From NCBI GenBank assembly GCA_021648485.1, contig JAKISS010000013.1, positions 1 to 56,430 on the forward strand: DNA of 56,430 bases, given 5' to 3'. The first letter of the stretch is position 1, and every line of letters starts with the position of its first letter. The notes under the pieces were generated by a model, which did not search any database, was not told the DNA's origin, and was given only the letters and a program-made list of their open reading frames with translations. This stretch comes from Gammaproteobacteria bacterium (lineage in GTDB: Bacteria > Pseudomonadota > Gammaproteobacteria > SZUA-152). Made by a program: the position numbers and the translations under genes. Of this stretch, positions 21,214-41,264 are shown piece by piece.

Positions 21214-21229
21214 AGCAGAAGCCGTACCA
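21214..21229 (-). promoter_or_regulatory. Sigma-54 promoter of the HEAT/Usp/rSAM/kinase operon
   Basis: Read on the minus strand the sequence is TGGTACGGCTTCTGCT, against the consensus TGGCAC-N5-TTGC(A/T). GG and GC are separated by exactly 10 bases. Expected transcript start is near 21203. Three TGAAC-N5-GTTCA palindromes lie about 130, 171 and 236 bases upstream of that point. Confidence 0.72.
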
Positions 21230-21325
21230 ACTTCTCGGCGCAGTATGAAAAGACAGGATTTCCCGCTATTAAAAGATATCAGGCAGATATCGTTAAATAC
21301 GGCTGTGTAACGAAACACGCAATAG

Positions 21326-21446
21326 TGAACGAAGTGTTCAATAAGGTCAGTGATGTAAGGTGAAGATGAACAATTCGTTCATGTTTCCCGGCTGGTTTTC
21401 AGGCATGGTATTTTTTGCCATACCCGTTATATGAACGGTGTGTTCA
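21326..21446. promoter_or_regulatory. Three upstream activator sites TGAAC-N5-GTTCA (array A)
   Basis: Perfect 15-bp palindromes at 21326-21340 (spacer GAAGT), 21367-21381 (spacer AATTC) and 21432-21446 (spacer GGTGT). Centre-to-centre distances are 41 and 65 bases. They sit at enhancer distance from the minus-strand sigma-54 promoter at 21214-21229 and closely parallel the array at 25713-25838. The inferred protein is the NtrC-type regulator at 7819-9291. Confidence 0.75.
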
Positions 21447-22186
21447 GGTTTTTCACTATCGTCCATCCTGTCATTCGGGAAAACCCTATGGAATGTCATG
21501 TTCCCCAAAGAAGGGCTACGTTATGGAATATTTGAGATGGCGGTTATCAGGGAAGCTGTGAATAAAAGGTATGTTTACATGTTGACTCTGCTGCTGCCTG
21601 GCGGTAAGTCTTTTAATTATATTTCCTGGTAAAGAAGCGTTATCGGGAATGGCATTTATGGGCAAGCGGTTTTTTGTTATGAGCAGCGCCTGCTATTCTT
21701 TGCGGCTTGAACTGTTGTTCGGAATATTGAAACCGGGTTCTTCTTTTTGTACTATTTCTTTATAGCGATTTTTATAAGGCTGTGATAGGTCTTGCGGTAT
21801 CAACAGATGACAATGGGCAGTATTTTTTACCCACAGGGTGGGAAAGGTTTCATGGGTAGATTGAATTAATTCCAATAAATTCATGTAGTTAAAGTTTTCC
21901 ATTTAAGCCTGATGGCTTCGGTTTCCTTGTCGCCCATCTGGAATACCTCGATTCGGATGTGGCGGATTACAGGCGTTAAAACCTCAGGGTATCGACGTTT
22001 ATGCGTATGATGGTAATACTTCACCAAGCTGGTGTGCGGGGTCGTTTATTTATTGCAGTCCAGTATAATGCCAGGGAACTTCTTACTGAAATTAAACAGA
22101 AACTGAATAAACGCAATGGCGATTTCGGCGGCCATATACGGGAATATTCAATTAACTGAATAATAAAAAATAACTTCTGAACATCT
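21447..22186. other. Intergenic region with decayed coding traces
   Basis: About 740 bases with no gene I can support firmly. A minus-strand frame at 21693-21902 (69 codons) and a plus-strand frame at 22001-22159 (52 codons) are both short, lack family motifs and have poor start signals. Between 21905 and 22100 short stretches of protein-like sequence jump between frames (for example PDGFGFLVAHLEYLD, then KPQGIDVYAYDGNT). This looks like an old disrupted gene, but I could not name the parent. Confidence 0.35.
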
Positions 22187-22795
22187 ATGCATCCAATCTA
22201 TATTGTTTGTCGGCAATCGTTGGTGCGCCGCGCATTTTCCACCATCATTGATGAATTTGATAAGGGATATCTGGCTGGTGAATGTGATAATTGTAGCGAG
22301 CTTTTGTACGGTGATGTGTCATTGCGAATTTCAATCATATTGATTGATCTGGATGAAGAAAGTCCTTCTTCTTTAAAACGATTGTATGACCGGCACCCTA
22401 AGTCAAAACTCATTCTGTATTCTGCTTTCGATAAAAACTGCTTTCAAAAACATCAATTACTGGCCAATATTCGTGGCTATCTCTCGAAGTACACCGCATT
22501 CGATACGGCTCGCTTGTGTATTGAGTCCGTTACCGCAGGGCATATTTTCATTGATCCTGCCATTTCCGAACATATGCTTGCCAATTTGAAAGAGCGTCCT
22601 GGCTCAATATTGAGTGAACGTGAAATGAGCGTCATTCAACTGATGTCAAAGGGAATGCGCAACAAGGAAATTGCTGATTTATTATTTATTACAGAGCGCA
22701 CAGTCAAATTCCATGTCAGCCAAATTTTTAAAAAACTGAATGTGAAAAACAGAACAGAAGCAGTGCGTCTGGCCATGGCAGATGGAATCGTTTAA
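22187..22795 (+). CDS. LuxR/NarL-type regulator with an atypical receiver domain
   Basis: A 202-residue transcription factor. The C-terminal LuxR helix-turn-helix is clear (LSEREMSVIQLMSKGMRNKEIADLL, then TERTVKFHVSQIFKKLNVKNRTEAVRLA, about 140-197). The N-terminal half has the fold and length of a receiver, and an aspartate stands at the phosphorylation position (ILIDLDEE). The acidic pair that normally follows the first strand is replaced by Cys-Arg (IYIVCRQSLVRRAF), so Mg-dependent phosphorylation is doubtful. It lies between two regulated units and upstream of the large diheme gene, and may regulate that gene. No kinase gene is adjacent. Confidence 0.87.
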   Translation: MHPIYIVCRQSLVRRAFSTIIDEFDKGYLAGECDNCSELLYGDVSLRISIILIDLDEESPSSLKRLYDRHPKSKLILYSAFDKNCFQKHQLLANIRGYLSKYTAFDTARLCIESVTAGHIFIDPAISEHMLANLKERPGSILSEREMSVIQLMSKGMRNKEIADLLFITERTVKFHVSQIFKKLNVKNRTEAVRLAMADGIV

Positions 22796-22815
22796 TTTGA
22801 AGCCCCCCCTTACCT

Positions 22816-22835
22816 TACTGTACTGAAGTACAGCT
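22816..22835. promoter_or_regulatory. LexA-like palindrome CTGT-N8-ACAG
   Basis: The sequence TTACTGT, eight bases, ACAGCT is the pattern of a gammaproteobacterial LexA box (TACTGT-N8-ACAGTA) with little deviation. It lies 20 bases after the LuxR-type gene and about 117 bases before the large diheme gene. It could equally be a plain hairpin (CTGTACT/AGTACAG), since no T run follows. Regulation by LexA is only a suggestion. Confidence 0.35.
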
Positions 22836-22951
22836 ACAAACTGTACCCCCCGCCAATTACATTTCATTCTCCTTTCGGGCAGGATGCGTTGCATCACAGC
22901 TTTAATACCGAAAATATAAAGAATACTCACAAATCAGGGAGGTGATTTGTA

Positions 22952-25252: not shown

Positions 25253-25289
25253 TTCAACATATTCCAGTTTGCTGTTTTGCAGAATACCT

Positions 25290-25321
25290 ACGGGATACCG
25301 GTTTCGGTATCCCGTATTTTT
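25290..25321 (+). terminator. Intrinsic terminator after the large diheme gene
   Basis: ACGGGATACCG (25290-25300), loop GTTT, CGGTATCCCGT (25305-25315), then ATTTTT. This is a perfect 11-bp stem 37 bases after the stop codon. The rest of the gap to 25712 carries no gene that I can support. Confidence 0.85.
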
Positions 25322-25712
25322 AATACATTCACCCTTCAGCAGTGTCATGCTTACAGTCTTTTCTGGCCGGATTGATAGAGGGGTTTTATCTTTATGGGTA
25401 ATGCAAGCGATCTATCTCTTATCGTATCGAAAATATAAAACAGCCTGTTTACCATCCGGTTCCCCCAGCGCCTTCATGGGCACGGTTTTACATCTCAGTT
25501 AAAATCATCATCCGCGAACATCAATAGAATGGAAGTTGTAATTTTCCACTGCCATATGCTATCCCCATGAAACTTCTTTATTTGTAGGGTTCGCACAACG
25601 CATCCTGCCTGTTATAACCGCCAAATGTTGATAAAAAGTGAACCCGCTGAGCCAAGTGAAAAGGCATGTGGTTTAACGATATTTCATATCCTCGTATCAC
25701 GATAATTAACGT

Positions 25713-25838
25713 TGAACAAAGTATTCAATAAGGCTGATGAAATGAGGTAGAAGTGAACAATACGTTCACATATTTTTCAGACTTTTCCGGTGTGTCATTT
25801 TGTTCCTTTGTACTGTCTGCTTATGAACGTTGTATTCA
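25713..25838. promoter_or_regulatory. Three upstream activator sites TGAAC-N5-GTTCA (array B)
   Basis: Sites at 25713-25727 (TGAAC AAAGT ATTCA), 25754-25768 (TGAAC AATAC GTTCA, perfect) and 25824-25838 (TGAAC GTTGT ATTCA). The first two centres are 41 bases apart, exactly as in array A, and the sequence around them is also alike (TTCAATAAGG after the first site in both). They lie about 243, 202 and 132 bases before the transcript start expected from the sigma-54 promoter at 25937. Confidence 0.73.
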
Positions 25839-25936
25839 TTTTTTCTTGTTACTACCCAGGCTGTTATTCTCTGTAAAGCTATTTTGATAGTCCCGGATCG
25901 TTGAAATAAAAGTGTTTGCCAGGAATTCAGGATGGC

Positions 25937-25952
25937 TGGCCTGGTTGTTGCT
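25937..25952 (+). promoter_or_regulatory. Sigma-54 promoter of the bd-like/cytochrome operon
   Basis: TGGCCTGGTTGTTGCT matches the -24/-12 consensus: GG and GC are exactly 10 bases apart and the -12 element TTGCT is perfect. Expected transcript start is near 25963, about 55 bases before the first small gene. Confidence 0.75.
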
Positions 25953-26016: not shown

Positions 26017-26181
26017 ATGATGGATACAGAAGAACATAAAACCCCCACTCAAAATCCTGAATATCGTGATAGCGAGAAGCGTTGGGGGCCTAAGCTTTTT
26101 TGGGTGATGCTGTTAGTGATATTGGTGTTTTTCTGGTGGTTATTGATTTACTCCCATGGCATTGAGACCAAACATGGGTGA
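26017..26181 (+). CDS. 54-residue single-pass membrane protein
   Basis: First gene after the sigma-54 promoter. It encodes a hydrophilic N-terminus (about 28 residues, charged, containing EYRDSEKRWGPK) and one transmembrane helix (about 29-46, WVMLLVILVFFWWLLIY), ending in HGIETKHG. Two adjacent ATG codons open the frame; GAGGA suits the second (26020) a little better. It has the size and layout of a small assembly or anchoring subunit of a respiratory complex. It is followed by another tiny membrane gene and the bd-like gene. Family not recognised. Confidence 0.65.
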   Translation: MMDTEEHKTPTQNPEYRDSEKRWGPKLFWVMLLVILVFFWWLLIYSHGIETKHG

Positions 26182-26226
26182 GTGTTGATCATTTATTTTT
26201 ACCAACAAACATAAAGAGAAAAACAA

Positions 26227-26355
26227 ATGACAACAAACCTGCAAATATGGTTAGCCGCTTTTACGATAGCGTTTTTATATTTCTACGGACTTGATCATTT
26301 TATTATGAGCATGCAGGGTTTACCGATCAATATGGATTTTACGCCTGCACAATGA
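26227..26355 (+). CDS. 42-residue single-pass membrane protein
   Basis: A short gene starting MTTNLQIWLAAFTIAFLYFYG with one membrane helix at about residues 6-22 and a short polar end (LPINMDFTPAQ). An AGAG sequence precedes the ATG and it lies 45 bases after the first small gene and about 40-55 bases before the bd-like gene. The position suggests a small subunit of that membrane complex. Family not recognised. Confidence 0.6.
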   Translation: MTTNLQIWLAAFTIAFLYFYGLDHFIMSMQGLPINMDFTPAQ

Positions 26356-26392
26356 CTATCCTGAACGTCTCTTTTTTGTGGCAGAGAAGTTT

Positions 26393-28288
26393 ATGGTGGA
26401 GAATCCTGTTATGAAGGAAAGTCGTTATTACTCGCGCTTGATATGGTCGATGTTATTGCTGATAACGGCAGCAGGATTTTTTTGGTCGGGCACAATCAGT
26501 ATAACGGGTGAATGGTTTTCCGGGGCGGTTGCTTCTGTGGAGAAGGTATCAACCGATACAGTGGTAACTGAAGAAGATGCTGAATTAAAACTGGTTCCTG
26601 CTCCCAGACCTACGCGTGCAGACTATCCTGATATTGGTGTCAGCAGTCGTTCCATTGTCTGGGTGGTGGCACAGATGCACCTGTTTTTCGGTGCTCTGGT
26701 ACTGGCTGTTCCACTCTTTGTGCTGGTGATTGAATTGCTGGGTGTGTATACCGGTGACTCGCGTTATGATGATATGGCGCATGAATTCATGAAAATCAGT
26801 ATCACCGCATATTCTATTACCGCTTTATTTGGCGGCACTCTGGCGCTGGCGCTGTTTCTGCTTTATCCCGATTTAATGACCTATCTTATGCGTGTGTTCG
26901 GTGCGCAGATGATGGTGTACGCCATACTGTTTTTTCTCGAAAGTATGGTGTTGTATATTTATTATTATGGCTGGGATGCGCTGCGGTACGGCAACGCCAA
27001 GTGGGTACATTTATCGTTAGGTTTATTACTCAATGCTGTGGGGGCTACCCTGATGGTCACGGCCAATTCCTGGGCCACGTTCATGATGGCACCCTCAGGC
27101 GTTAACGAAGTCGGTGCTGTGATCGGCAATATCTGGGAGGTTATGAAAGGGCCGCTGTGGAATCCCATTAACCTGCACCGGTTTATTGCCAATATTGCCT
27201 TTGGCGGTGCGGTGGTGGGAGCCTATGCTGCTTATAAATGTCTGGCCGCCAGAACCGCCGAGGCCCGTGCCCACTATGACTGGATGGGATACACCTCTAA
27301 CTTCATTGCTATTCTTGCTTTTCTGCCGTTGCCTTTCGCTGGTTATTGGCTGATGGCAGAAATTTACGCCTATTCGCAACAAATGGGAATTACCGCCATG
27401 GGTGGTATTCTGGCCTGGTTGTTTATCATTCAGGCCGTATTGATCGGTACCATTCTGTTGGCGGGTAATTATTATTTGTGGTCCGGCATGTCTCGCACCG
27501 AAGGTTCCAAACGTTACCAGGGATTTATCAAGTATATTGCGATGGTGCTGGTGATTTGTTTTTTGATCTGGGTGACACCGAATACCCTGATTCTTACCTC
27601 TGGTGAAATAGCCGCACTGGGTGGCAGCAAGCATCCTCTGCTTGGCGCATTGGGTATTATGCCGGCAAAAAATATCGCGGTAAATCTGATGCTTATTTTC
27701 ACCTTCATGTCTTTCCAGATATACCGACGCTCAGACAAAGTGGCCACTGTTTCATGGGAGAAGGCAGGCAATGCCTTAATGGTGGCAATTTATGTGGTTG
27801 CTATTGTCAATATCATTTTTGCCGGTGTGTATTACGGTTATTTCACCAACACGGTATACAAGGTGGGCTCCAGTGTGATGCAGGTGGTGTCTACCCTGAC
27901 TGTCATTATCAGTGGTGTGGTGCTTGATGCCTTTTTATATCGTGGCGCGAAGACTCTGCCTTCTCATTGGGGGCAGGTGAGCAATCGCGCTCAGTATGCT
28001 TTGTTCGCTTTGCCTATCGCCTTTACCTGGTTGATGGCGCTCATGGGTTATGTGCGCTCATCGGTACGCACCCATTGGCATGTGTATACGGTGATGAAAG
28101 ATACTTCTCCCGATAATTTTATTCCTACTATTGGTTATGCTGGAAACATGATGACCATTGTTACGGTGATGTTTGTCTTGTTTGTGTTGTTTATTTTCTG
28201 GATCGCTAACCTCAGTGGCAGTAAGCAATTACCACCTTATGCTATCAATAAAGTGCCTGCCACTGAACGGGTGGGAGGCGCAGCGTGA
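26393..28288 (+). CDS. Cytochrome bd-like (CydA-related) membrane protein
   Basis: Polytopic protein of about 630 residues with some 14 hydrophobic segments. Two histidine-bearing helices resemble the CydA heme ligands: AQMHLFFGALVLAVPLF (compare MYHFLFVPLTLG) and NLHRFIANIAFGGAVVGAY (compare the heme b558 His helix). The CydA quinol loop and the C-terminal GRQPW motif are not present; at the latter position the sequence is VRSSVRTHWHVY. No CydB follows; two c-type cytochrome genes take its place. This matches the divergent bd-like oxidases known from Nitrospira-type nitrite oxidisers, which are thought to take electrons from cytochrome c. Whether it reduces oxygen is unknown. The start is uncertain: ATG at 26393 or 26411, or GTG at 26378. 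It overlaps the next gene by four bases. Confidence 0.78.
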   Translation: MVENPVMKESRYYSRLIWSMLLLITAAGFFWSGTISITGEWFSGAVASVEKVSTDTVVTEEDAELKLVPAPRPTRADYPDIGVSSRSIVWVVAQMHLFFGALVLAVPLFVLVIELLGVYTGDSRYDDMAHEFMKISITAYSITALFGGTLALALFLLYPDLMTYLMRVFGAQMMVYAILFFLESMVLYIYYYGWDALRYGNAKWVHLSLGLLLNAVGATLMVTANSWATFMMAPSGVNEVGAVIGNIWEVMKGPLWNPINLHRFIANIAFGGAVVGAYAAYKCLAARTAEARAHYDWMGYTSNFIAILAFLPLPFAGYWLMAEIYAYSQQMGITAMGGILAWLFIIQAVLIGTILLAGNYYLWSGMSRTEGSKRYQGFIKYIAMVLVICFLIWVTPNTLILTSGEIAALGGSKHPLLGALGIMPAKNIAVNLMLIFTFMSFQIYRRSDKVATVSWEKAGNALMVAIYVVAIVNIIFAGVYYGYFTNTVYKVGSSVMQVVSTLTVIISGVVLDAFLYRGAKTLPSHWGQVSNRAQYALFALPIAFTWLMALMGYVRSSVRTHWHVYTVMKDTSPDNFIPTIGYAGNMMTIVTVMFVLFVLFIFWIANLSGSKQLPPYAINKVPATERVGGAA

Positions 28289-29445
28289 AGGCCAAACAGA
28301 CAAACGATGTTAAATCGGGTGGTAATGTGCTGGCAAAAAGTATGATATTTAGCCTGGGTCTGGTGTTATTGTTCACTCTGACGACCAACCTGTTGCCACA
28401 AATGGAAGGTGAAGCGCCGGTAGAACAGGAAGTAGACCTGGGGTCATTAACGATTGAATCCTTCGTTGCTTTGGGTGAGTCCCTTTTTACCGGTAAAGGT
28501 ACTTGTTCTCTGTGTCATAACGACCTGGGGCGTGCCCCGGATATTTTGGGATTTAATATGGTAGAGATTGCCATTGAGCATTTGAACGATGAACGTTACA
28601 AAGGTAATGCTACCGATGCTGAGTCTTATTTGCATGAGTCTCTGGTAGATCCGGGTATCTATGTGGTGAAGGGTTTTGGCAAGAAGGGGAGTAACGATAC
28701 GATTTCACCCATGCCAGCTATTCACAAGCCACCTGTCGAGCTTTCGGACATTGAGATCAATGCAGTGATTGCCTATTTACAGGCAAAAGATGGCAATGAC
28801 GTTACTGTGTCGTTACCTGCTAAGGTATCTGCGACAGCAGTGCCGTCAGTGGAGCCCACCACACCGGCGGGTACGGTTGAAGAAATCATCACCCGGTATG
28901 GCTGCCGGGCCTGTCACAAAATAGCGGGGAGTGGCGGTGAGCTTGGTCCTGGTCTTGAACAGGTTGATACACGCCTGAGCCCCGGGAAAATTCGCCAGAG
29001 CATTATCGACCCTGACGTGGAAATTACCGAAGGTTTTTCTGCTGGAATTATGCCTGGGAATTTCGCAGAGCAAATGAGGGTGAAAGAACTGGAAATGTTG
29101 GTGACCTTCCTGGCCGGTACTGAAGTAGCGGGTAGTGAAAAACCGGTTAAAACATCTTCGACAAATGCACGCGTAACGGGTAATGAGGCTGAGAAGGCTA
29201 TTGCGCAGTTTGGTTGTCAGGCTTGCCACATAATATCGGGTAGTGGCGGTAAGCTGGGACCGTCTCTTGAAAATGTAGGTGCCCGTCTGGATGTTGATCA
29301 AATCCGCCAAAGTATTATTGAGCCCAATGTGGTTATCACCGAAGGTTTTCCTTCGGGAGTGATGCCGCCAAATTTTGCAGAGCAAATGAGTGATGCACAA
29401 CTTGATGCACTGGTGAATTTTCTGGCAGAACAAAAGGGTGGTTAG
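28285..29445 (+). CDS. Membrane-anchored triheme cytochrome c
   Basis: A 386-residue protein with an N-terminal anchor (about 19-38) and three c-type heme motifs: C74-x2-C-H78 (CSLCH), C207-H211 (CRACH) and C311-H315 (CQACH). The last two domains (about 200-282 and 303-386) are close copies of each other, sharing SGSGG.LGP, IRQSII and GFxxGxMPxNFAEQM, which points to a recent internal duplication. The GTG start overlaps the stop of the bd-like gene (GTGA), and the next gene follows after three bases. It most likely transfers electrons between periplasmic donors and the membrane protein. Met ligands in the MP.NF segments are plausible sixth ligands. Confidence 0.87.
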   Translation: MKAKQTNDVKSGGNVLAKSMIFSLGLVLLFTLTTNLLPQMEGEAPVEQEVDLGSLTIESFVALGESLFTGKGTCSLCHNDLGRAPDILGFNMVEIAIEHLNDERYKGNATDAESYLHESLVDPGIYVVKGFGKKGSNDTISPMPAIHKPPVELSDIEINAVIAYLQAKDGNDVTVSLPAKVSATAVPSVEPTTPAGTVEEIITRYGCRACHKIAGSGGELGPGLEQVDTRLSPGKIRQSIIDPDVEITEGFSAGIMPGNFAEQMRVKELEMLVTFLAGTEVAGSEKPVKTSSTNARVTGNEAEKAIAQFGCQACHIISGSGGKLGPSLENVGARLDVDQIRQSIIEPNVVITEGFPSGVMPPNFAEQMSDAQLDALVNFLAEQKGG

Positions 29446-29448
29446 ATA

Positions 29449-32284: not shown

Positions 32285-32299
32285 AGAACAAACTGTTCA
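32285..32299. promoter_or_regulatory. Activator site AGAAC-N5-GTTCA upstream of the idr-like operon
   Basis: AGAAC AAACT GTTCA, one mismatch from the 15-bp palindrome found in arrays A and B. Its centre is about 111 bases before the transcript start predicted from the sigma-54 promoter at 32377. A half-site (TGAAC) lies about 30 bases further upstream. Confidence 0.62.
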
Positions 32300-32376
32300 C
32301 TCCTCTTGGTTTTTTCAAGCTCTTTCCCTTTGTGTAATCAATTGTTTTTAATCGTATTCTCCTTGTCTTTATGGTC

Positions 32377-32392
32377 TGGCCTGTAATGTGCA
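32377..32392 (+). promoter_or_regulatory. Sigma-54 promoter of the idr-like operon
   Basis: TGGCCTGTAATGTGCA: GG and GC are exactly 10 bases apart, TGGC and TGCA elements are intact. Expected start of transcription is near 32403, leaving a leader of about 90 bases before the first peroxidase gene. Confidence 0.68.
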
Positions 32393-32491
32393 GTTGATAC
32401 ATCAGGTGGATAAAAATGACACTTTCTTGTGCGGTCCACAGGCTGAGATGCGGCGGGCGCAGGCGGTAATCGATAACAGGAGGGATTGAAA

Positions 32492-33604
32492 ATGGTCGCA
32501 ATCGTTACAACACGACAATGCTTTCTTGCCGTGACTCTGGGAGTCGGCCTGGCGATTGCGGGCCAGGTGGTGGCAGCCCCTGAGATTGGTCCGTTACCGG
32601 TGCTCAAGGTTAATGAGGCGAGAGCGGAGCTGGGTAAACGTTTATTTTTTGATAAACGGGTGTCGGGTGATGTGGGTGTTTCCTGTGCCACCTGCCATGA
32701 ACCGGAGAATGGTTATGCCAACAAAGATGCCTTGTCCAAGGGGTATCCCGGCAATAAACATTTCCGTAATGCTCCCGGACTGATCAACACAGCACATAAA
32801 AAAGTGTGGATGCACGATGGACGCATCGGTACGAATCTCAATGATGTGACGCGCGAAATGATTACCGAAGATTACATTATGAATATGGATATGCGCATCA
32901 TGCAGGAGCGCTTCAAGCAGGATCCGCTTTATGTGGAGATGTTTGAAGCGGCGGGTTTGGGTGAACCTTCCAATGGGGGGGTACGCAAGGCTATTCCTGA
33001 ATACCTGAAAACGCTTACTTCGCGTGGCTCACCTTTTGACAAGGGCACAATGTCGGCTTCGGCCAAACGAGGTATGAAACTTTTCAAGGGAAAAGCGGGT
33101 TGTGTGGCTTGTCATAATGGCCCGGTATTTACCGATGGAAAGGCGCACAACACGGGTGTGAAAGAAAATTTTGATGTCTGGCTGGACCCCCAGCGCCATC
33201 AAGCGTTTATCGCCTATGCCGCATTTATGGGTATAAAAAACTATATGAATCTCAAGAGAGATCCTGGTGCCCATTTGCAGAAACATGCCGCTGATGGTTC
33301 TGATATGGGCAGGTTTATTACACCGAGTCTGCGTGAGCTTAAATACACTGCGCCTTATATGCATAACGGTATGAGTAAGACGTTGGCGGATGTGGTGGGT
33401 TTTTACAATCGTGGCGGTGATAACGACCGTAACAAGGATGCAAGAATTAAACCCCTGAAGTTAGGCAAGACAGAACAGAAGGATTTGGTGGCCTTTTTGC
33501 TGGCTTTGTCGGGTGAACCACTGACAAGCAGTAAGCATGTGTGGCAGGAAGCATACCCCGTAGAGTATCCGGTTATCGCCAACTGGCTGAATGTGCCTAA
33601 CTAA
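32492..33604 (+). CDS. idrP1: Periplasmic diheme peroxidase, IdrP-like (first)
   Basis: Exported diheme c-type peroxidase (370 residues). Signal peptide about 1-29 (ending VVAAP), heme motifs CATCH at 65-69 and CVACH at 204-208, with LGKRLFFDKRVSGD before the first and GMKLFKGKAG before the second. The late motif is TPSLRELKYTAPYMHNG. In iodate-respiring bacteria two such peroxidases (IdrP1, IdrP2) are encoded with IdrA/IdrB and are proposed to detoxify hydrogen peroxide formed during iodate reduction; the same set stands here. I start at the ATG with AGGAGG seven bases upstream, not at the TTG two codons earlier. It is the first gene of the idr-like operon. Assignment as P1 rather than P2 is arbitrary. 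Confidence 0.78.
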   Translation: MVAIVTTRQCFLAVTLGVGLAIAGQVVAAPEIGPLPVLKVNEARAELGKRLFFDKRVSGDVGVSCATCHEPENGYANKDALSKGYPGNKHFRNAPGLINTAHKKVWMHDGRIGTNLNDVTREMITEDYIMNMDMRIMQERFKQDPLYVEMFEAAGLGEPSNGGVRKAIPEYLKTLTSRGSPFDKGTMSASAKRGMKLFKGKAGCVACHNGPVFTDGKAHNTGVKENFDVWLDPQRHQAFIAYAAFMGIKNYMNLKRDPGAHLQKHAADGSDMGRFITPSLRELKYTAPYMHNGMSKTLADVVGFYNRGGDNDRNKDARIKPLKLGKTEQKDLVAFLLALSGEPLTSSKHVWQEAYPVEYPVIANWLNVPN

Positions 33605-33621
33605 TCAATGAGGAGATTGTC

Positions 33622-34923
33622 ATGGGTTTGTTTAATAAAGCAGAACAGAAAGTGCCGATTTTGTTGCTGATAATAACCGTGGTGGTAATAGCAATGGCGA
33701 CAATGGCGGCGGTGACTTTCGCCATGGGTGATAAACCTCCGGCCACGGCAAGCAAGGTCAGCCTCTCACCAGTGCCGGTCGCAGAACCAACGCAACCTCA
33801 GGTCGAAACTTTTGTAAAGATGGCAGATCCTGAAATCCCGCCTTTGGCACCGTTGGGACCGCCACCCATACCCGCAGACAATCCCATGTCGGATGCCAAA
33901 GTGGCACTGGGTAAATTACTGTATTTCGATCCACGTCTGGGGGGAGATGCTTCCATCTCCTGTGCTACTTGTCATGAGCCCGAGCAGGGATGGTCTTTTG
34001 CTGAGGGTATTTCCCGAGGTTATCCCGGTACTGTCCATTGGCGAGGCAGTCAGCCAGTGCTTAATGCTGCCTACTATAATAAGTTGTTCGCGGCAGGCTC
34101 GACGCCTTCACTGGAATCCCAGGCACCCAGTGCGGCGCGTGGTGGTGTAGCGGGTAATGGTGAAAATGACATCATGGAAGCGCGACTTCGATTGATCCCG
34201 GATTATGTCAATCGGTTTAATGATGTTTTCGGTGAGCCTTGGCCGACCATTAATAATGCCTGGAAAGCCATTGCGGCTTTTGAGCGTACTTTGGTGCAAC
34301 GCGACACACCTTTGGACAAGTATTTACTGGGTGATAAAACAGCGCTGGATGATCAGCAGCTTCGTGGCAAGGTACTGTACGAAGGCAAGGCCCGTTGTAT
34401 TTTATGCCACAACGGTGCATTCACCACTAATGAAAAATATTACAACATTGGTGTGCCACGCGCGATGCGCTGGGAGGAGGATGGGCTTGCACAGGTTACT
34501 TTCCGCTTTGAACAGTATGCCAAGGGGACTACCGAGGAAATGTACCGCACTATAAAAGATGATGCCGGTTTGTATTATCGCAATAAAAACAAGTGGAGTA
34601 TGGGTAAGTTTCGCGTTCCCACTTTACGTTATACAAAATACACGGCACCTTTTATGCGCCAGGGTCAGTTTTATACACTGGAGGAAGTGATTGATTTCTA
34701 TGATCGGGGTGGTTTTGATGAGGAGGGAAGAACCACTTCTTTCCCTGAGACCAAGACACCGCTGATTCAGAAACTTGGTCTTTCTGATGAAGAAAAAGAT
34801 GATTTGTTGACCTTCATTGAAGCGTTGTCAGGTGACGAAATTTTGATGGATAAACCCAAACTGCCTCCTTACAAACCGCTATTTACCCGGGCAGAGTTAC
34901 AGACAGCGCAGGTTGAAAAATGA
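33622..34923 (+). CDS. idrP2: Membrane-anchored diheme peroxidase, IdrP-like (second)
   Basis: A 433-residue diheme peroxidase with an uncleaved-looking N-terminal helix (about 11-35) and a Pro-rich linker (about 40-90). Heme motifs are CATCH at 114-118 and CILCH at 259-263. Family segments LGKLLYFDPRLGGD, FERTLVQRDTPLDKYLLGD and FRVPTLRYTKYTAPFMRQG are all present. It begins 17 bases after the first peroxidase with a GAGGAG site and is followed by the Rieske gene. The pair of diheme peroxidases next to a Rieske/molybdoenzyme pair is the specific signature of iodate reductase loci and is not usual for arsenite oxidase loci. Confidence 0.78.
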   Translation: MGLFNKAEQKVPILLLIITVVVIAMATMAAVTFAMGDKPPATASKVSLSPVPVAEPTQPQVETFVKMADPEIPPLAPLGPPPIPADNPMSDAKVALGKLLYFDPRLGGDASISCATCHEPEQGWSFAEGISRGYPGTVHWRGSQPVLNAAYYNKLFAAGSTPSLESQAPSAARGGVAGNGENDIMEARLRLIPDYVNRFNDVFGEPWPTINNAWKAIAAFERTLVQRDTPLDKYLLGDKTALDDQQLRGKVLYEGKARCILCHNGAFTTNEKYYNIGVPRAMRWEEDGLAQVTFRFEQYAKGTTEEMYRTIKDDAGLYYRNKNKWSMGKFRVPTLRYTKYTAPFMRQGQFYTLEEVIDFYDRGGFDEEGRTTSFPETKTPLIQKLGLSDEEKDDLLTFIEALSGDEILMDKPKLPPYKPLFTRAELQTAQVEK

Positions 34924-34953
34924 ACATCAGTCGCAAAAACAGGAGATATCGAT

Positions 34954-35559
34954 ATGAGCACTGATAGGGGCATTGATGATACAACTCGCCGCAAGCGCAA
35001 GGCAGGTTCCAGAGCTGCTCATGGCAAGTGCATGCTCACGCGACGTCAGTTCCTGTTATACAGCGGTGGTACCGCAATGACGGCAAGCACGGTTTCACTG
35101 GGTTTGTTTCCGGGCAGTGCAACGGCGACCACTGCGAAGGTGGTGGGGTATCCACGCAAGCTGATTGCAAAACTCAGCGAGCTGAAAGACAACGTGCCGG
35201 TGGATTTTAATTACCCGGATGACTTGGGTAACTCAGCCGCAATGATTGTAAAAATGGGTGGGGTGCAGGCGGGGGGTGGTATTGGGTCACAACGGGATGT
35301 GGTGGCTTATAACTACCTTTGTACTCATCAAGGCGGGCCACTGCAAGGCAGTTATGTTGCCGAGGGGCCACACCGGATTCTGGGTCAATGCCCTTTGCAT
35401 CTTTCGACCTATGATTTGACCCGGCATGGCATTGTTATTTCCGGTCAGGCCTACGAAAGCCTGCCTCAAGTGTTACTGGAACTGGATGGTGATGATATTT
35501 ACGCCGTGGGCATGATGGGGCTGATTTTTGGACGACATAAAAATTTGCTGGAATCCTGA
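34954..35559 (+). CDS. idrB: Tat-exported Rieske subunit, IdrB/AioB-like
   Basis: Small iron-sulfur subunit of an AioBA/IdrBA-type enzyme (201 residues). A twin-arginine signal is visible (LTRRQFLLYSGG, arginines 30-31, hydrophobic stretch to about 57). The Rieske ligands are C123-x-H125 in CTHQGG and C146-x2-H149 in CPLHLS. The two extra cysteines that make the disulfide in bc1-type Rieske proteins are missing (Gly and Leu at those places). The protein would fold with its [2Fe-2S] cluster and travel with the catalytic subunit through Tat, since the large subunit has no signal of its own. It lies between the second peroxidase and the molybdoenzyme with short gaps, in one operon. Confidence 0.88.
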   Translation: MSTDRGIDDTTRRKRKAGSRAAHGKCMLTRRQFLLYSGGTAMTASTVSLGLFPGSATATTAKVVGYPRKLIAKLSELKDNVPVDFNYPDDLGNSAAMIVKMGGVQAGGGIGSQRDVVAYNYLCTHQGGPLQGSYVAEGPHRILGQCPLHLSTYDLTRHGIVISGQAYESLPQVLLELDGDDIYAVGMMGLIFGRHKNLLES

Positions 35560-35583
35560 CAGGTATTAGAGGAGGGTGAGGAC

Positions 35584-38295
35584 ATGACAACTGAATATTA
35601 TATCCCCGAAGACAGTGCGCCGCTGCCGCCGAAAAATTGCGACGTACTGACCACTGCCTGTGATTATTGCATTGTCGCTTGCGGTTACAAAGTCTATCGT
35701 TGGCCTATGAGCACACCGGATGGTGGACCGAAGGCTCATGAAAATGCTTATGGTATCGATTTCCCGTCATTTACACTCCAGGACTGGGTGGCACCCACGC
35801 AACACAATGTGGTGATGCACAATGGGCGTCCTCACAAGATTGTGATTACACCGGATAAGGATACCCGGCATGTCAACCTGCAAGGTGATTCCAGTATTCG
35901 TGGCGGATGTATCGCACAAAAAGTGTATAACCCGGACAAGCCTACCTGGGACCGGCTCAAGAATCCGTTGGTACGTATTAACGGTATTCTGCAACCAGTG
36001 ACCTGGGACTTTGCGTTAGACATCGCGGCGGAAGTCGCCAAACATGTCATCAAGGAACATGGAGCCAATGCCTATTCTGTGAAGACCTATGGTTACCAGT
36101 TTATGGAGAATATGTACGCCATTACCAAGTTCTCTTTCCGTGATGTGAATACGGCCTCATGGACCTGGCACGACACACCCTCCAAGGCTACTTCAACACC
36201 GGGTTATCGTGATGCCGGTTTTGATAATTTTGCACCTTCCTATGAGGACTGGGGGGCTGCCGATACGTTATTGATCAGTGGTACTGATCCTTACGAAACC
36301 AAGACCATTATTTTTACCTCATGGATAAAACCCGGCATTGATCGTGGCATGAAAGTGATCTCACTGAATCCGCGTGAGACGGGCGGTGTCACTTATGCCA
36401 AAAAAATGGGTAATGGTTTGCTGCTTGATTTGTATCCCGGTACTGACAGTATCGTGCTGGGTGCTATGACCCGTATTATTCTTGAGAATGGCTGGGAAGA
36501 TACAGACTGGATCAAAAAATGGGTCAACAATAAATTTGAAACCGACTCCGGTTTTGGCCAGGGCACTCGTAACACGCCGTGGCAATGGCGAACCACCTGG
36601 GGAAAATTTCAGACGGGTGGTTTTGACGGTTATAAAAAATGGTTGATGGAACAGGATGAGTACAAGCTGGAAAACGCCGCACAAATCAGTGGCGTTGACG
36701 TTGCCAAAATTCGTCAGGCCGCTGACTGGATGGCTAAACCCAAGGCCGATGGCAGTCGCATCAAGGCTTCGCTTGGTCTGGAAAAGGGCAACTACTGGTC
36801 AGCAGGCACATCCAGTACCAATGCGCTGGCATCATTGGCCACCCTGGTGGGTGCCGGTGGCCGACCGGGTCAGGTCATAGGGCGCTTTGGCGGCCATCAG
36901 CGTGGCGGTCAGAATGGTGGCAAATACCCACGTAATAAATCACCCATGAAAGTGCCAGGACGTCGGCGTCGTCCACTGGATACTGATCGCTGGCTGAAAT
37001 CCGGCCATACCCGCTTTGCCCATGTTATCGGTACTACCTGGATGCAGGCCATGGCGGGAACGGTGGGTTTGCAACAGAGTTTCGAGCAACTGGTGACGTT
37101 AAACCCGCATCAGATACGGTCACATGATAAACAGGAAATCATTGATACTCTGAAAAAACGTGCGGACTCTGGTGGCATGGTAGTGATTAATCAGGAGATT
37201 TATCTGCGAGACCCGATTGGCAGTCGCTTTGCGGACATTGTGTTTCCCGCAGCCACCTGGGGAGAAGTGGATTTCATGCGCGCCAATGGTGAACGCCGTT
37301 TGCGTTTGTACTCGAAATTTTATGACGCTCCCGGCGATGCACAACCAGACTGGTGGATCATCGCTCAGCTGGCCAAGCGCATGGGCTTTGAAGGCTACGA
37401 CTGGAAAAACTCCAATGATGTGGCCGAAGAAATGTCACGTTACTCACGCAAGAGTCGCAAGTCCTATCACATGATCAAGGTCGCAGCACACCGCGAGGGA
37501 ACAACGCTGCATGAAAAATTACGTTCACTGGGCACTGACGGCATTCAGGGGCCAGTGTTTTACAACTATGATACAGGTGAACTTCATGGTACCAAGCGCT
37601 TGCATGATACCACGCTGACACGGGAAGATATGGACAAAAAATGGGGGGCAGATGGCCCTGCGGGTGCCAATATGCACTCCAAAAAATACACCCATTTCAA
37701 TAGCCAGACCGGCAAGATCAATTTGCAAAAACATCCCTGGGACATTATTTCAACCTACTGGAACTGGTTGAAGCCCAGAGGTGATGAGTTATGGCATACC
37801 AATGGCCGTATCAACGAAATCTGGCAATCCGGTTTTGACGATACCGAACGCCGTGCCTATATTGCCCAGCGTTTCCCTGCCGATGCCCAATTCGTCGAAA
37901 TTCATCCTGATGATGCGGCGGCTCGTGGTATTGAATCCGGTGATCTGGTGATGATGTATAACGAACGCGTACCCAACTTCAAAGATGTCATTCTAGGGGT
38001 TTTCTCAAATGATCTTCAATTTGATGAAGCGCTGAAAAATGGACATATCGAATTAGGTAAGGCAGCAGTAACCGCCGTAGCGCTGGTAACTCCGGCCATC
38101 AAGAAGGGTGTAACCTTCAGTAATTTTCTTAATACGGTGCAGCCTACCAATGTGTTGCAAGGTGCAATAACAGATACCATTACCGGAAATTACAATTTCA
38201 AGTTAGGTATTGCAAAAATAAAAAAACTGGGAGAGTCAAAATACAAACATACCTTTAACAGTATGACCTTTGTGCCACGAACGCTGACGGCTTGA
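35584..38295 (+). CDS. idrA: Molybdopterin oxidoreductase of the AioA/IdrA family, probable iodate reductase
   Basis: Catalytic subunit (903 residues) with bis-MGD molybdenum and a [3Fe-4S] cluster. The cluster motif is C26-x2-C29-x3-C33 (ACDYCIVACGYKVYRWP), as in arsenite oxidase AioA, and Ser103/104 precede IRGG. Compared from memory with Alcaligenes AioA: His195 corresponds to H196 (WTWHDTPS), and Arg419 and His423 correspond to R434 and H438 (RFGGHQRGG). The arsenite-pocket Glu203 is replaced by a small residue (S204). With two diheme peroxidases upstream, this points to the iodate reductase clade (IdrA) instead of arsenite oxidation. The protein probably acts in the periplasm, co-exported with the Rieske subunit. 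A phylogeny is needed to settle substrate; other oxyanions remain possible. Confidence 0.8.
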   Translation: MTTEYYIPEDSAPLPPKNCDVLTTACDYCIVACGYKVYRWPMSTPDGGPKAHENAYGIDFPSFTLQDWVAPTQHNVVMHNGRPHKIVITPDKDTRHVNLQGDSSIRGGCIAQKVYNPDKPTWDRLKNPLVRINGILQPVTWDFALDIAAEVAKHVIKEHGANAYSVKTYGYQFMENMYAITKFSFRDVNTASWTWHDTPSKATSTPGYRDAGFDNFAPSYEDWGAADTLLISGTDPYETKTIIFTSWIKPGIDRGMKVISLNPRETGGVTYAKKMGNGLLLDLYPGTDSIVLGAMTRIILENGWEDTDWIKKWVNNKFETDSGFGQGTRNTPWQWRTTWGKFQTGGFDGYKKWLMEQDEYKLENAAQISGVDVAKIRQAADWMAKPKADGSRIKASLGLEKGNYWSAGTSSTNALASLATLVGAGGRPGQVIGRFGGHQRGGQNGGKYPRNKSPMKVPGRRRRPLDTDRWLKSGHTRFAHVIGTTWMQAMAGTVGLQQSFEQLVTLNPHQIRSHDKQEIIDTLKKRADSGGMVVINQEIYLRDPIGSRFADIVFPAATWGEVDFMRANGERRLRLYSKFYDAPGDAQPDWWIIAQLAKRMGFEGYDWKNSNDVAEEMSRYSRKSRKSYHMIKVAAHREGTTLHEKLRSLGTDGIQGPVFYNYDTGELHGTKRLHDTTLTREDMDKKWGADGPAGANMHSKKYTHFNSQTGKINLQKHPWDIISTYWNWLKPRGDELWHTNGRINEIWQSGFDDTERRAYIAQRFPADAQFVEIHPDDAAARGIESGDLVMMYNERVPNFKDVILGVFSNDLQFDEALKNGHIELGKAAVTAVALVTPAIKKGVTFSNFLNTVQPTNVLQGAITDTITGNYNFKLGIAKIKKLGESKYKHTFNSMTFVPRTLTA

Positions 38296-38322
38296 AGGAT
38301 ATGTGTTGCGAAGAAAAACCCC

Positions 38323-38342
38323 CGCTCAGGGACGAGCTTTTT
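38323..38342 (+). terminator. Weak terminator-like hairpin after the molybdoenzyme gene
   Basis: GCTC, six-base loop, GAGC, then six T, about 28 bases after the stop codon and preceded by an A run. The stem is only four pairs, so some read-through into mogA is possible. Confidence 0.4.
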
Positions 38343-38559
38343 TGAGGGAAGTGACCGATTAAGGTTTAAGGGTTTAAATATTTAAAGGATGGTGAGTTTT
38401 TATGGGGTTATACCAATACCGCCACATGCGCTTTTGGAGAAGTCTGGCTATCAAACACTGTTCAACCGAGGCAGTTTGTCAGTGACTCCGGCATGTCCCC
38501 TCCCGGCGGGGTATAACTCCATTTTTTCTAAAAATGCTGATAAAGAGTTTGTATTTGTC

Positions 38560-39096
38560 ATGACTGATTTTTCAGAAGTGCGTATCGGTATCGTCACTGT
38601 TTCAGATCGTGCCAGCCGTGGAGAATATGCAGATATCAGCGGGCCCGCGATAGAGACGGAACTGCACAGGATACTCGCAATGGACTGGAGGGTAATTACT
38701 CGTCTGGTGTCGGACGAACATCACGAAATAAAAGCCGTGTTGCGTGAGCTGTGCGATGAACAAAACACATGTCTGGTGGTGACGACAGGTGGTACCGGGC
38801 CTGCACTGCGTGATGTTACACCTGAGGCAACAGAAGCAGTTTGCACAAAAGTTCTCGATGGTTTCGGTGAGCAAATGCGTGCTGTATCCCTCAAGTTCGT
38901 ACCTACGGCTATTCTTTCGCGGCAGATTGCCGGCATACGTGGTTGCAGTCTGATTATCAACTTACCGGGGAAACCTGCTGCTATCGCACAATGCCTTCAG
39001 GCGGTATTTCCAGCCATACCATATTGTATTGATCTCATTGGTGGGCCATATTTGGTGACCGACCCGGATGTGGTAAAGGCCTTTCGTCCAGAGTGA
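38560..39096 (+). CDS. mog: Molybdopterin adenylyltransferase MogA
   Basis: Adenylates molybdopterin before metal insertion, a late step of molybdenum cofactor synthesis. The 178-residue length is normal and the motifs are intact: VRIGIVTVSDRASRGEY near the N-terminus, VVTTGGTGPALRDVTPEAT in the middle and INLPGKPAAIAQCL late. The open frame extends further upstream, but the family begins just before EVRIGIVTVSD, so the ATG at 38560 is chosen; its ribosome binding site is weak. Its place right after the molybdoenzyme, together with moaA in the other regulated operon, suggests that cofactor supply is coupled to this respiratory system. Confidence 0.92.
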   Translation: MTDFSEVRIGIVTVSDRASRGEYADISGPAIETELHRILAMDWRVITRLVSDEHHEIKAVLRELCDEQNTCLVVTTGGTGPALRDVTPEATEAVCTKVLDGFGEQMRAVSLKFVPTAILSRQIAGIRGCSLIINLPGKPAAIAQCLQAVFPAIPYCIDLIGGPYLVTDPDVVKAFRPE

Positions 39097-39150
39097 GTTA
39101 TACACCATCAATCATGGTTCATTGTTTAATCTGTGGCGGGTGATGATATT

Positions 39151-39546
39151 GTGCGCGTAACCCTGTTTACTGAATACTCATTCAAAGTGCTTTTATATTT
39201 AGCAGGTAGAAATGCGACATTGGTGACAGTGGATGAAGTTGCTCGTGAGTGTCACATGTCAAAAAATCATTTAGTTAAAGTCTTCCAAAACCTGGTTCAT
39301 TCAGATTTTGTCAACTCTGTGCGTGGAAAACATGGCGGCATTCGTCTGGCACGAGTGCCGGAGTTGATCAATCTGGGTGATGTGGCGCGCCAGACGGGTA
39401 TGAATCTGGACGAGGTGGATTGCTGTGATACCTCTGGGCATGATTGCCCCTTTGTGAATGATTGCAAACTGAAATATGTCATTCGCAATGCCCGTCGTAG
39501 CTACATGGCGACAATGGACGGGTATACATTGGATGCTATTTTGTAG
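39151..39546 (+). CDS. Rrf2-family regulator, NsrR-like
   Basis: Winged-helix repressor of the Rrf2 family (131 residues). The start is set at a GTG giving MRVTLFTEYSFKVLLYLA, which matches the NsrR N-terminus, with GGGTGAT upstream; the frame opens six codons earlier at another GTG. The DNA-binding helix is HMSKNHLVKVFQNLV. Four cysteines lie in the cluster loop: C91, C92, C99 and C105, a spacing compatible with the [4Fe-4S] site of nitric-oxide-sensing NsrR. It may sense NO or redox state. Its targets in this window are not evident. The 54-base gap to mogA leaves co-transcription possible. Confidence 0.88.
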   Translation: MRVTLFTEYSFKVLLYLAGRNATLVTVDEVARECHMSKNHLVKVFQNLVHSDFVNSVRGKHGGIRLARVPELINLGDVARQTGMNLDEVDCCDTSGHDCPFVNDCKLKYVIRNARRSYMATMDGYTLDAIL

Positions 39547-39760: not shown

Positions 39761-39784
39761 GATGGTTTTGTGATTCGAGGGTAA

Positions 39785-39799
39785 GGAACAGTCTGTTCC
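39785..39799. promoter_or_regulatory. Orphan GGAAC-N5-GTTCC palindrome
   Basis: GGAAC AGTCT GTTCC has the same GAAC-N5-GTTC core as the activator sites but lies between the 3' ends of two convergent genes, with no sigma-54 promoter found nearby. It may be a chance match, a remote enhancer or the site of an unseen small RNA gene. Confidence 0.35.
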
Positions 39800-39904
39800 G
39801 CCGAATGTAAACTAATGACTTTATTCGATTGAATATTTTAAACGCTTAATTCATATCCAAGAATATGGGGCATGAATACCATGCCCACATCCCGGATGTG
39901 ATGA

Positions 39905-40966
39905 TCAGAACTTCACATTGAAATTAATCTGTGCGCGGGAACGATCATCCTGTGTATCCACACCCTTGGTGATGAGCTTTGCATCATAATAACGAACATC
40001 CATGGTGCTGTTATTGCCCAGTTTGTAATCCAGTTGCAGGCGGGGGCCTTTGAAATTATCTGCCGAGGGCTCATTGGAACCGAAGTTATCCTGCGTAAAG
40101 ACACCATCGCCCGGGGTGGCGAAGGTTTCCACATAATAATAATAAGCGCGTAGACCTACGGTTTTATTGATTTTAAAACGTATCTGGGCAACGTAAGCCG
40201 TGTCTTCCGTATCGGCATTGCTTTGTAAATAATCGACACCGAATCGCCAAGAGCCGGTGCGCAACTGGCCGCTGATGATCCAGTGACGGTCAGCATGCAA
40301 GCCATCGGCAAGACCATCATCCGTTGCATCCATGTCAGTGGGGGCATCCAGCGTGGCACCGCCAGCGGCGAGAGTATACTTCATACCTCCACTGCCTCCA
40401 TGATAGACAGCCTGATAAGTAAAGGCCGTCACATCATCATTCCAGCCTCCATCGGTAACAATGATATAGGCTCCGTTGAGGGTTAGAGAGCCAGCCTTGT
40501 ATATCAGGGCAAAAGCATCGGGATTAATATCATTATCCCAGAACACCTCGGTCTGCTGCCAGAAATTAAACCCCGTTTTTCCGCCGATGACCGTGAGATT
40601 TTTTATACCGGTGAATGCGATATAGGCCTGATCAAAACCCAGGTTACTGCCGGAAGGAGGGGAGTCTGCGGTAGAGAAAGTATTATGAGGTGAATTCATG
40701 CCATTACCGGTTGCCAGACGTAACCTGCCGGACCATTCACCATTAACTTTAAAGGCGACACCAAAGCGTGCGCGATAACGCCAGCGGTCACGATTATTGG
40801 TTGTACTATCCTGTTTTTTTCTGTCGTCAGCCTCAATGCGTAAACGCACATCGCCAAATAATTCTACTTTGTCATCCTTATCCAGCGGAATAGATGCGGT
40901 AGCCATGGAGGGTAAGATCAATGCGACAGTGATAATACCGGCAGCGACAATAGTCTGGGTATTCAT
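39905..40966 (-). CDS. Outer-membrane porin-like beta-barrel protein
   Basis: A 353-residue exported protein with signal peptide (about 1-24, ending MATAS). It then has alternating beta-strand segments rich in aromatic and Gly residues, opening VELFGDVRLRIEADDR and ending with a C-terminal Phe (FNVKF), as in outer-membrane barrels. The composition suggests a putative porin or alginate-export-like barrel family. The start is the ATG at 40966 with GGGGAG upstream; the frame runs further but without a signal. A sigma-54 promoter (41058-41073) and a TGAAC-N5-GTTCA site (41250-41264) precede it, so it seems to belong to the same regulon as the respiratory operons. It probably admits the oxyanion or a related small solute. 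Confidence 0.8.
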   Translation of the reverse strand: MNTQTIVAAGIITVALILPSMATASIPLDKDDKVELFGDVRLRIEADDRKKQDSTTNNRDRWRYRARFGVAFKVNGEWSGRLRLATGNGMNSPHNTFSTADSPPSGSNLGFDQAYIAFTGIKNLTVIGGKTGFNFWQQTEVFWDNDINPDAFALIYKAGSLTLNGAYIIVTDGGWNDDVTAFTYQAVYHGGSGGMKYTLAAGGATLDAPTDMDATDDGLADGLHADRHWIISGQLRTGSWRFGVDYLQSNADTEDTAYVAQIRFKINKTVGLRAYYYYVETFATPGDGVFTQDNFGSNEPSADNFKGPRLQLDYKLGNNSTMDVRYYDAKLITKGVDTQDDRSRAQINFNVKF

Positions 40967-41057
40967 TATTTTCTCCCCTGATGAATCAATTGAATATAAT
41001 GGGGCACTTTTATAGCCCTTCAGTTTTCCTTTGTTATTTTTCCTCTTAGTCAAGGGC

Positions 41058-41073
41058 AGCACTTACTGTGCCA
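41058..41073 (-). promoter_or_regulatory. Sigma-54 promoter of the porin gene
   Basis: On the minus strand TGGCACAGTAAGTGCT. The -24 element is perfect and GG-N10-GC spacing is exact, making it the best match of the four. Predicted transcript start is near 41048, about 80 bases before the porin ATG. Confidence 0.8.
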
Positions 41074-41249
41074 AATGCACAGGGTTTTATTGCGCAAGTG
41101 CTGTGGAGAAACAGAATGAAGATTCTATCTTTTTTGTGAAAAAACAGCGGCTTGCCGGTGTAAAGTGGCGCTACCGGGAAATGCGGGGACAGGTGAATAA
41201 TTCAACGGATGAATGTTTGATTCAAATCGTTAAATTGCAGGAGTTTGCT

Positions 41250-41264
41250 TGAACAGATTGTTCA
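41250..41264. promoter_or_regulatory. Activator site TGAAC-N5-GTTCA upstream of the porin
   Basis: Perfect palindrome TGAAC AGATT GTTCA centred about 209 bases before the predicted porin transcript start. Two further GTTCA half-sites follow at about 41285 and 41296. The region 40967-41356 otherwise holds no gene. Confidence 0.72.

Follow-up and report, generated by a model that had tools for sequence, protein, structure and literature searches.

We analyzed a 56,430-nucleotide stretch of DNA, contig JAKISS010000013.1 of a gammaproteobacterial genome (hereafter, the window), in which four transcription units carry palindromes upstream of sigma-54-like promoters. These units, namely an operon beginning with a HEAT-repeat gene (the HEAT operon), a bd-like/cytochrome operon (the bd operon), an idr-like operon, and a porin gene, are most probably the targets of a dedicated NtrC-family two-component system, in which a sensor kinase and the response regulator encoded at 7819-9291 would act through the palindromes. 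The existence of a regulon as such is strongly supported by sequence comparison, and the assignment of the 7819-9291 protein as the predicted binding partner of the palindromes is well supported. Dozens of related bacteria show this pattern in company with the same regulator gene, and for this reason the units very probably form one switchable gene set.

Results

Palindromes and promoters of the four units

All of the motifs quoted in the first-pass annotation of this DNA are present, and a motif search showed that each of the four units has a sigma-54-like promoter and at least one palindrome (Table 1). Three perfect palindromes belong to the HEAT operon, the bd operon has one perfect palindrome and two with one change each, and the idr operon has a single palindrome with one change. 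For the porin, the perfect site proposed earlier at 41250 was confirmed, and a weaker site at 41210 with two changes, which had been omitted, was added. The HEAT gene had been assigned a TTG start at 21230; the ATG at 21164 is most likely the start instead.

A scoring matrix was trained on 30 HEAT/bd control regions from relatives, excluding those of the window and of locus L028, and had the consensus ATTGAAC-N5-GTTCAAT. On 716,034 reversed bases it gave 7 matches scoring at least 12 and none scoring at least 16, and its best score on the reversed window was 13.0. The eight sites of the first-pass annotation were among its nine best matches in the window. The ninth (45247-45261; score, 18.4) lies inside a thioredoxin-like gene, is probably due to chance, and was rejected as a regulon site. 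A match at 42509 was also left out of the regulon.

The palindrome was then considered across the whole genome (3,127,017 bases, or 3.13 Mb, in 102 contigs; 86% complete), of which the window (56 kb) makes up 1.8%. The perfect palindrome occurred at 10 places, compared with none for the reversed pattern. Two of these, on contigs C45 and C87, lie in one 127-bp overlap of contig ends and thus represent a single place, leaving 9 distinct places. Five of the 9 fall inside the window (binomial probability, 2.3e-7), all of them upstream of sigma-54-like promoters. The remaining four each overlap an open reading frame (ORF), the one on C38 overlapping only short ORFs whose coding status is uncertain; the ORF-internal perfect palindromes had matrix scores of 10.7 to 17.5. 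Within 500 bp of these four, one sigma-54-like site scoring at least 9 was found, at -231 on C45, and this site is itself internal to an ORF. The four were rejected as additional regulon members because of the ORF overlap and the position of the C45 promoter-like site. The first-pass annotation had held that a palindrome equally common away from promoters would speak against a regulon; run genome-wide on perfect matches, this comparison left the regulon standing. A composite pattern, with WGAAC-N5-RTTCA and TGGY-N8-TGC separated by 75 to 105 bp, had only three matches genome-wide, one each at the HEAT, bd, and idr promoters, and none in the reversed control. The palindrome-promoter gaps of the porin fall outside this range. 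Chance clustering of the motif was rejected on these genome-wide counts together with the comparative controls below.

Shared control region of the HEAT and bd operons

Relatives were collected by a scan with the CydA-like protein of the bd operon, which yielded at least 80 loci, and 50 of the 80 were used for regulator and idrA matching. Loci L028 to L070 are labeled mostly as Gammaproteobacteria, L067 being assigned to Parvularculaceae and L053, L057, L060, and L070 to Proteobacteria only. The relatives include metagenome-assembled genomes (MAGs), which are incomplete, so that some gene absences may be false.

In L028 to L070, the HEAT and bd operons mostly adjoin each other in divergent orientation, with one common region between them in which the palindromes are central and sigma-54-like sites point toward both operons. 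When all 13,312 symmetric patterns (1024 x 13) were ranked by occurrence in 31 nonredundant HEAT/bd regions, TGAAC-N5 came first, being present in 19; the best count of any symmetric pattern over 30 shuffles was 3. Matrix matches scoring above 12 were found in 31/31 regions, a figure that is partly circular, and in 6 of 310 control segments. A palindrome paired with a promoter toward bd was present in 29 of the 31 regions (2/310 controls) and one paired toward HEAT in 27 (0/310 controls), the misses being L051 and L052 on both sides and L054 and L056 on the HEAT side. A strong matrix match (20.7) was also observed about 2.3 kb upstream of a bd-like gene on a Hyphomicrobiales contig (L072:1835).

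In the window, a LuxR-type gene (22187) and a gene for a 766-residue MauG/peroxidase-like protein occupy 22187-25252, between the HEAT and bd operons. Neither was matched over half of its length in any of 44 related loci, many of them short. Both flanks of these inserted genes carry the control region (within 21165-26016): copy 1 comprises three sites and the HEAT promoter, and copy 2 comprises three sites, the bd promoter, and a decayed HEAT promoter, with a stretch resembling the start of the L028 HEAT gene upstream of it. The HEAT and bd sites have in common a 56-nucleotide block that is 75% identical. This arrangement reads as a two-way control region that was duplicated in this genome, each copy then apparently losing one promoter. 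From the first palindrome cluster to the LuxR-type gene, no plus-strand sigma-54-like site scored 9 or more, and the LuxR-type and peroxidase-like genes were rejected as a fifth unit for want of such a site.

Co-occurrence of the regulator with the palindromes

The regulator has receiver, sigma-54 AAA+, and Fis-type helix-turn-helix domains, each with a Pfam match at an E value of 1e-8 or better. It had been noted as the sole sigma-54 activator in the window and as part of one of the target operons, which holds: it is 1 of 9 strong PF00158 proteins in the genome, which has 12 PF00158 matches including 3 weak ones. The rpoN gene is single copy (one PF04552 match; E, 1.2e-68).

Orthologs of the regulator with 56 to 94% identity were found in 34 of 50 genomes, all within the 43 loci L028 to L070 and none in the 7 others tried; further matches were only 44 to 48% identical. 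The kinase gene adjoined the regulator gene on the same strand in all 20 relatives fetched, preceded in 17 by orf108 and the FAD gene (the other 3 loci were cut by contig ends), and MoaA followed the regulator in 5 of the 20. Excluding the truncated loci L035 and L046, 32 of the 33 regulator-bearing genomes had a matrix match upstream of the bd gene, as did 2 of the 15 that lack the regulator (Fisher test, 7e-9, kinship ignored); within L028 to L070 the corresponding counts were 32/33 and 2/8 (4e-5, kinship ignored).

The recognition helix, SRPRLRR, was common to the regulator of the window and the 31 orthologs aligned with it, without exception, and was absent from the 8 other strong sigma-54 activators of the genome. 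Two alphaproteobacterial loci, L075 and L080, encode a 54% identical homolog with a changed helix (SRPKLDRR, SRPRLDRR) and carry weak palindromes whose right half is altered, each followed after 95 bp by a sigma-54-like site. This covariation of helix and palindrome, seen in two cases only, is suggestive.

In a sample of 369 genomes of the class, which overlaps partly with the relatives (for example, G268 and G037 have identical coordinates), 15 had a strong IdrA match, 11 had the regulator, and 9 had both (Fisher test, 8e-13, uncorrected). A genome of the same genus as that of the window, G247, matched neither idrA nor the regulator. In genome G170, the regulator and its sites occur with a variant bd/Usp/FAD cluster, and no idrA match was obtained. 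Genome G102 has the kinase-regulator pair, with neither idrA nor a bd/Usp/FAD cluster. Its pair is faced by a site of 19.6 bits together with a sigma-54-like site scoring 9, an arrangement consistent with self-control of the pair. The gene back to back with the pair in G102 (L206:11972-13423) appeared by eye to encode a trypsin/PDZ-type protease-like protein.

Palindromes upstream of idr and porin genes

Since neither the idrP1 upstream regions nor the L191 and L192 loci entered the training of the matrix, they provide, together with the window, tests independent of it. A matrix match was found in 16 of 17 idrP1 upstream regions, compared with 1 of 316 controls, and a match followed 50 to 200 bp further by a sigma-54-like site scoring at least 8 was found in 15 of the 17, compared with none of the 316. 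The 17 regions are not fully independent, L038 and L076 being near duplicates of each other. The palindrome-promoter gap was 85 to 87 bp in 10 loci and 77 bp in 2, a difference of about one helical turn, and is 76 bp in the window. One miss, L040, retains the palindrome without a promoter-like site; the other, L055, lacks both elements and comes from a genome in which no regulator was detected.

In L191 and L192 (genomes G278 and G377), the kinase-regulator pair is back to back with idr genes, and one palindrome of 25 to 26 bits lies between them. A promoter-like sequence, TGGCATGCTTCTTGGA or TGGCACGCTTCTTGGA, follows 88 to 89 bp past the palindrome, near the usual gap. No bd operon was found within the 19 kb fetched. 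In a more distant idr cluster (L193:8700-9120; genome G175), two score-11 sigma-54-like sites face both ways without this palindrome, and perhaps another activator acts there.

In one genome of another family (L208, G253), two sites and a sigma-54-like site scoring 9 lie upstream of a related porin gene, and in L213 two sites and a score-11 sigma-54-like site precede an unnamed 519-residue frame. The earlier proposal of one regulon under the 7819-9291 activator is thus supported by conservation of the regions upstream of the HEAT/bd, idrP1, and porin genes. The role given to the activator, which would bind the palindromes, gains support from the position of its ortholog at the end of the same operon, from its co-occurrence with the palindrome, and from its conserved, distinctive helix.

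Genes of the four units

Reading leftward from about 21164, the HEAT operon encodes a HEAT-repeat protein, an fn3-like protein, a Usp protein with PCP_red, a radical SAM protein with PCP_red, an FAD oxidoreductase, orf108, the sensor kinase, the regulator, and MoaA, whose gene overlaps that of the regulator by 44 bases. The best NCBIfam matches of the radical SAM protein were NirJ2 and AhbD, both under the cutoff. A radical SAM protein nearest to NirJ2/AhbD, an FAD oxidoreductase, and PCP_red domains thus stand in one operon (12222-17780), and these genes possibly constitute a tetrapyrrole-modifying pathway.

The two small proteins of the bd operon have 54 and 42 residues, and its second cytochrome has an ethylbenzene-dehydrogenase-like heme-b (EB_dh) domain. 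Alignment of the bd-like protein with cytochrome bd subunits of solved structure is confined to part of its first half. In the idr-like operon, to which the MoCF-type and Rrf2-type genes (the latter at 39133) were counted by assumption, the Rieske and molybdopterin subunits exceed the cutoffs of TIGR02694 and TIGR02693, both models being named for arsenite oxidase. The IdrA-like protein is 64% identical to that of a Roseovarius MAG (L107), and a pair of di-heme peroxidase-like genes (32486-33604 and 33622-34923; PF03150) lies beside the Rieske and molybdopterin genes. Arsenite oxidase clusters, as far as they are described in PMC8692401, are without such a pair. By these features the cluster at 32486..39546 resembles iodate reductase clusters of the idrABP1P2 type.

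A di-heme peroxidase-like gene (1877-3250) and an MsrPQ-like Oxidored_molyb/Ferric_reduct pair (46052-47682) flank the whole cluster.

Table 1. Features of the proposed regulon in the window
Feature	Coordinates	Strand	Sequence or basis
Sigma-54-like promoter of HEAT operon	21214..21229	-	TGGTACGGCTTCTGCT; identical/similar site toward HEAT in relatives
Control region copy 1 (palindromes 21326, 21367, 21432, each perfect)	21326..21446		Motif search; matches shared region of L028
Control region copy 2 (palindromes 25713, one change; 25754, perfect; 25824, one change)	25713..25838		Motif search, matrix, and comparison with L028
Sigma-54-like promoter of bd operon	25937..25952	+	TGGCCTGGTTGTTGCT; L028 site identical
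Palindrome of idr operon, one change	32285..32299		Kept upstream of idrP1 in relatives
Sigma-54-like promoter of idr operon	32376..32391	+	TGGCCTGTAATGTGCA
Sigma-54-like promoter of porin	41058..41073	-	TGGCACAGTAAGTGCT
Porin palindromes (41250, perfect; 41210, weaker)	41210..41264		Motif search and matrix
moaA-like gene (molybdenum cofactor), last in HEAT operon	6834..7862	-	PF06463, PF04055
NtrC-family response regulator, proposed palindrome binder	7819..9291	-	PF00072, PF00158, PF02954
Sensor histidine kinase (sensor domain PF21623 and PAS domains), proposed regulator partner	9288..11882	-	Pfam
Remainder of HEAT operon	11879..21164	-	Domain matches; gene order same in relatives
bd operon	26017..31851	+	Two small proteins, CydA-like protein, two c-type cytochromes
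idr-like operon	32486..39546	+	Two MauG/peroxidase-like genes, Rieske subunit, molybdopterin subunit, MoCF-type and Rrf2-type genes
Porin	39905..40966	-	PF16930

Discussion

In the NtrC family, the phosphorylated regulator oligomerizes on paired sites and remodels sigma-54 polymerase via looping. By the same logic, the sensor kinase of the HEAT operon would phosphorylate its neighboring regulator, dimers of which would bind TTGAAC-N5-GTTCAA palindromes about 50 to 200 bp upstream of -24/-12 promoters and, by looping, activate sigma-54 RNA polymerase at the HEAT, bd-like/cytochrome, idr-like, and porin units. Because the kinase and the regulator are encoded inside a target operon, the circuit should amplify itself. 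In most relatives, a single shared region would drive the HEAT and bd operons divergently.

Several observations weigh against a single regulon of this kind. The training set of the matrix covers 30 of the 31 tested HEAT/bd regions and most loci of the regulator/site co-occurrence test, and the comparative counts take no account of relatedness among genomes. The palindrome with one mismatch is not specific alone, occurring at 121 places in the genome, compared with 49 for the control; such palindromes were excluded as evidence, and the first 50 of the 121 places were listed. Within the window, matches with at most two mismatches are only mildly enriched (41, compared with a shuffle mean of 28.7). 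The matrix score alone is also insufficient, the ORF-internal palindrome on C91 (17.5) and the 45247 match both scoring above two of the proposed sites. L051 and L052 have no acceptable palindrome-promoter pair on either side, L056 has the regulator with no matrix match above 12 in the stretch tested, and the -12 element of L191 and L192 is GG rather than GC. Conversely, L039 and L066 have the site with no regulator detected, and in G114, which belongs to the family of the window genome and is rated 100% complete, a palindrome scoring 14.7 and sigma-54-like sites lie between the HEAT and idr genes with no regulator match. Lastly, idrA was detected in 30 of 34 relatives with the regulator and not in the other 4, and it was found in 10 of the 16 genomes searched that lack the regulator, in which other regulators must serve idr.

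Some of these points would be accounted for if a different protein bound the palindromes, be it the LuxR-type (22187) or Rrf2-type (39133) protein or a further sigma-54 activator. All of these exist in the genome, two of them within the window, and the sites without a detected regulator in L039, L066, and G114 agree with such a reading. We consider it improbable, given that the LuxR- and Rrf2-type proteins had no match covering half of the query in 44 related loci, many of them short, in which the palindrome is mostly kept, that the presence of the 7819-9291 ortholog follows the site, that its helix is unlike those of the other strong activators, and that the kinase-regulator pair alone stands at the site in L191 and L192. 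A motif that arose by chance, or by shared ancestry of repeated DNA, and has no regulatory role is hardly credible. In its favor, the window has HEAT and bd sites that are in part copies of each other and so are not independent; against it stands the recurrence of the motif at matching positions in all 31 HEAT/bd regions and in nearly all idrP1 upstream regions, far above the controls.

A more serious alternative concerns the purpose of the regulon rather than its existence, and we regard it as having something short of an even chance. Here the HEAT/bd core would respond to a condition such as oxygen limitation or redox stress, with idr as a passenger in some genomes. The four regulator-bearing relatives without detected idrA, together with G170 and G102, fit this proposal, as does the reported rise of idr expression under oxygen limitation in Roseovarius azorensis (PMC11445184). 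On the other side are the presence of idrA in most regulator-bearing genomes, both among the relatives and in 9 of 11 of those in the class sample, and the attachment of the pair directly to idr genes in L191 and L192. In R. azorensis, iodate and static growth are each reported to induce idr genes (PMC11445184), and a signal consisting of iodate and/or oxygen limitation is plausible for the two-component regulon proposed here. A doubtful extension is that the signal sensed by the kinase is iodate or a related oxyanion and that the regulon is one respiratory machine with idr as its terminal reductase. In such a machine, the bd-like/cytochrome complex might form a quinol-to-cytochrome branch to idr, moaA might supply the cofactor, and the porin might provide entry, each of these assignments being tentative. 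It is equally speculative that the HEAT operon, with its NirJ/AhbD-like radical SAM protein, FAD oxidoreductase, PCP_red, and HEAT proteins, modifies a tetrapyrrole to give a special heme for the bd-like complex.

The analysis yields a specific kinase-regulator pair, operator, and list of target operons for idr genes, for which we found no regulator binding site described. Across many Gammaproteobacteria, the pair makes a good candidate for the idr switch. The system is kept in many members of this class, including relatives of sulfur oxidizers and animal symbionts; Sedimenticola hydrogenitrophicus SN1189 (L054) is a named strain among them. Poorly understood bd-like, HEAT, and radical SAM genes are tied by it to the idr switch, which makes their role testable.

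Comparison with known systems

The type of system is known, and the regulon itself appears undescribed: in the open-license PMC literature, neither the palindrome nor a site bound by an idr regulator was found to be described. NtrC-type regulators (NtrC, HupR, and others) have Fis-type helix-turn-helix domains and bind dyads with half-sites 5 bases apart. The system of the window resembles NtrC and HupR in its Fis-type domain, in the 5-base spacing of its half-sites, and in the distant sites upstream of -24/-12 promoters and differs in its half-site TTGAAC and helix SRPRLRR, a combination of which we know of no described equivalent.

In Azoarcus sp. DN11, a sigma-54 regulator and kinase (atoS/atoC) are reported upstream of the idrABP1P2 cluster (PMC10149662). 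The likeness to the window, a regulator/kinase pair beside idr, is one of gene position; the account in PMC10149662 gives gene positions and, as far as seen there, no binding site or regulon.

By analogy, the nearest parallel is AioXSR of Agrobacterium and Rhizobium NT-26, in which a sigma-54 response regulator and a kinase switch on the arsenite oxidase genes aioBA from an RpoN promoter (PMC6011840, PMC7533571). Both systems pair a sigma-54 regulator with a kinase, target a molybdopterin oxidase of the family of IdrA, and have cytochrome and molybdenum-cofactor genes among the set. In AioXSR, arsenite is sensed by the periplasmic protein AioX, and the NT-26 aioXSR operon is described as using RpoD and RpoE2 promoters. 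No AioX-type periplasmic binding domain was found among the HEAT operon genes; orf108, the neighbor of the kinase, gave no match in Pfam. In contrast to AioXSR, the regulatory genes of the window lie within a sigma-54 target operon, and the predicted targets include bd-like, HEAT/radical-SAM, and idr operons.

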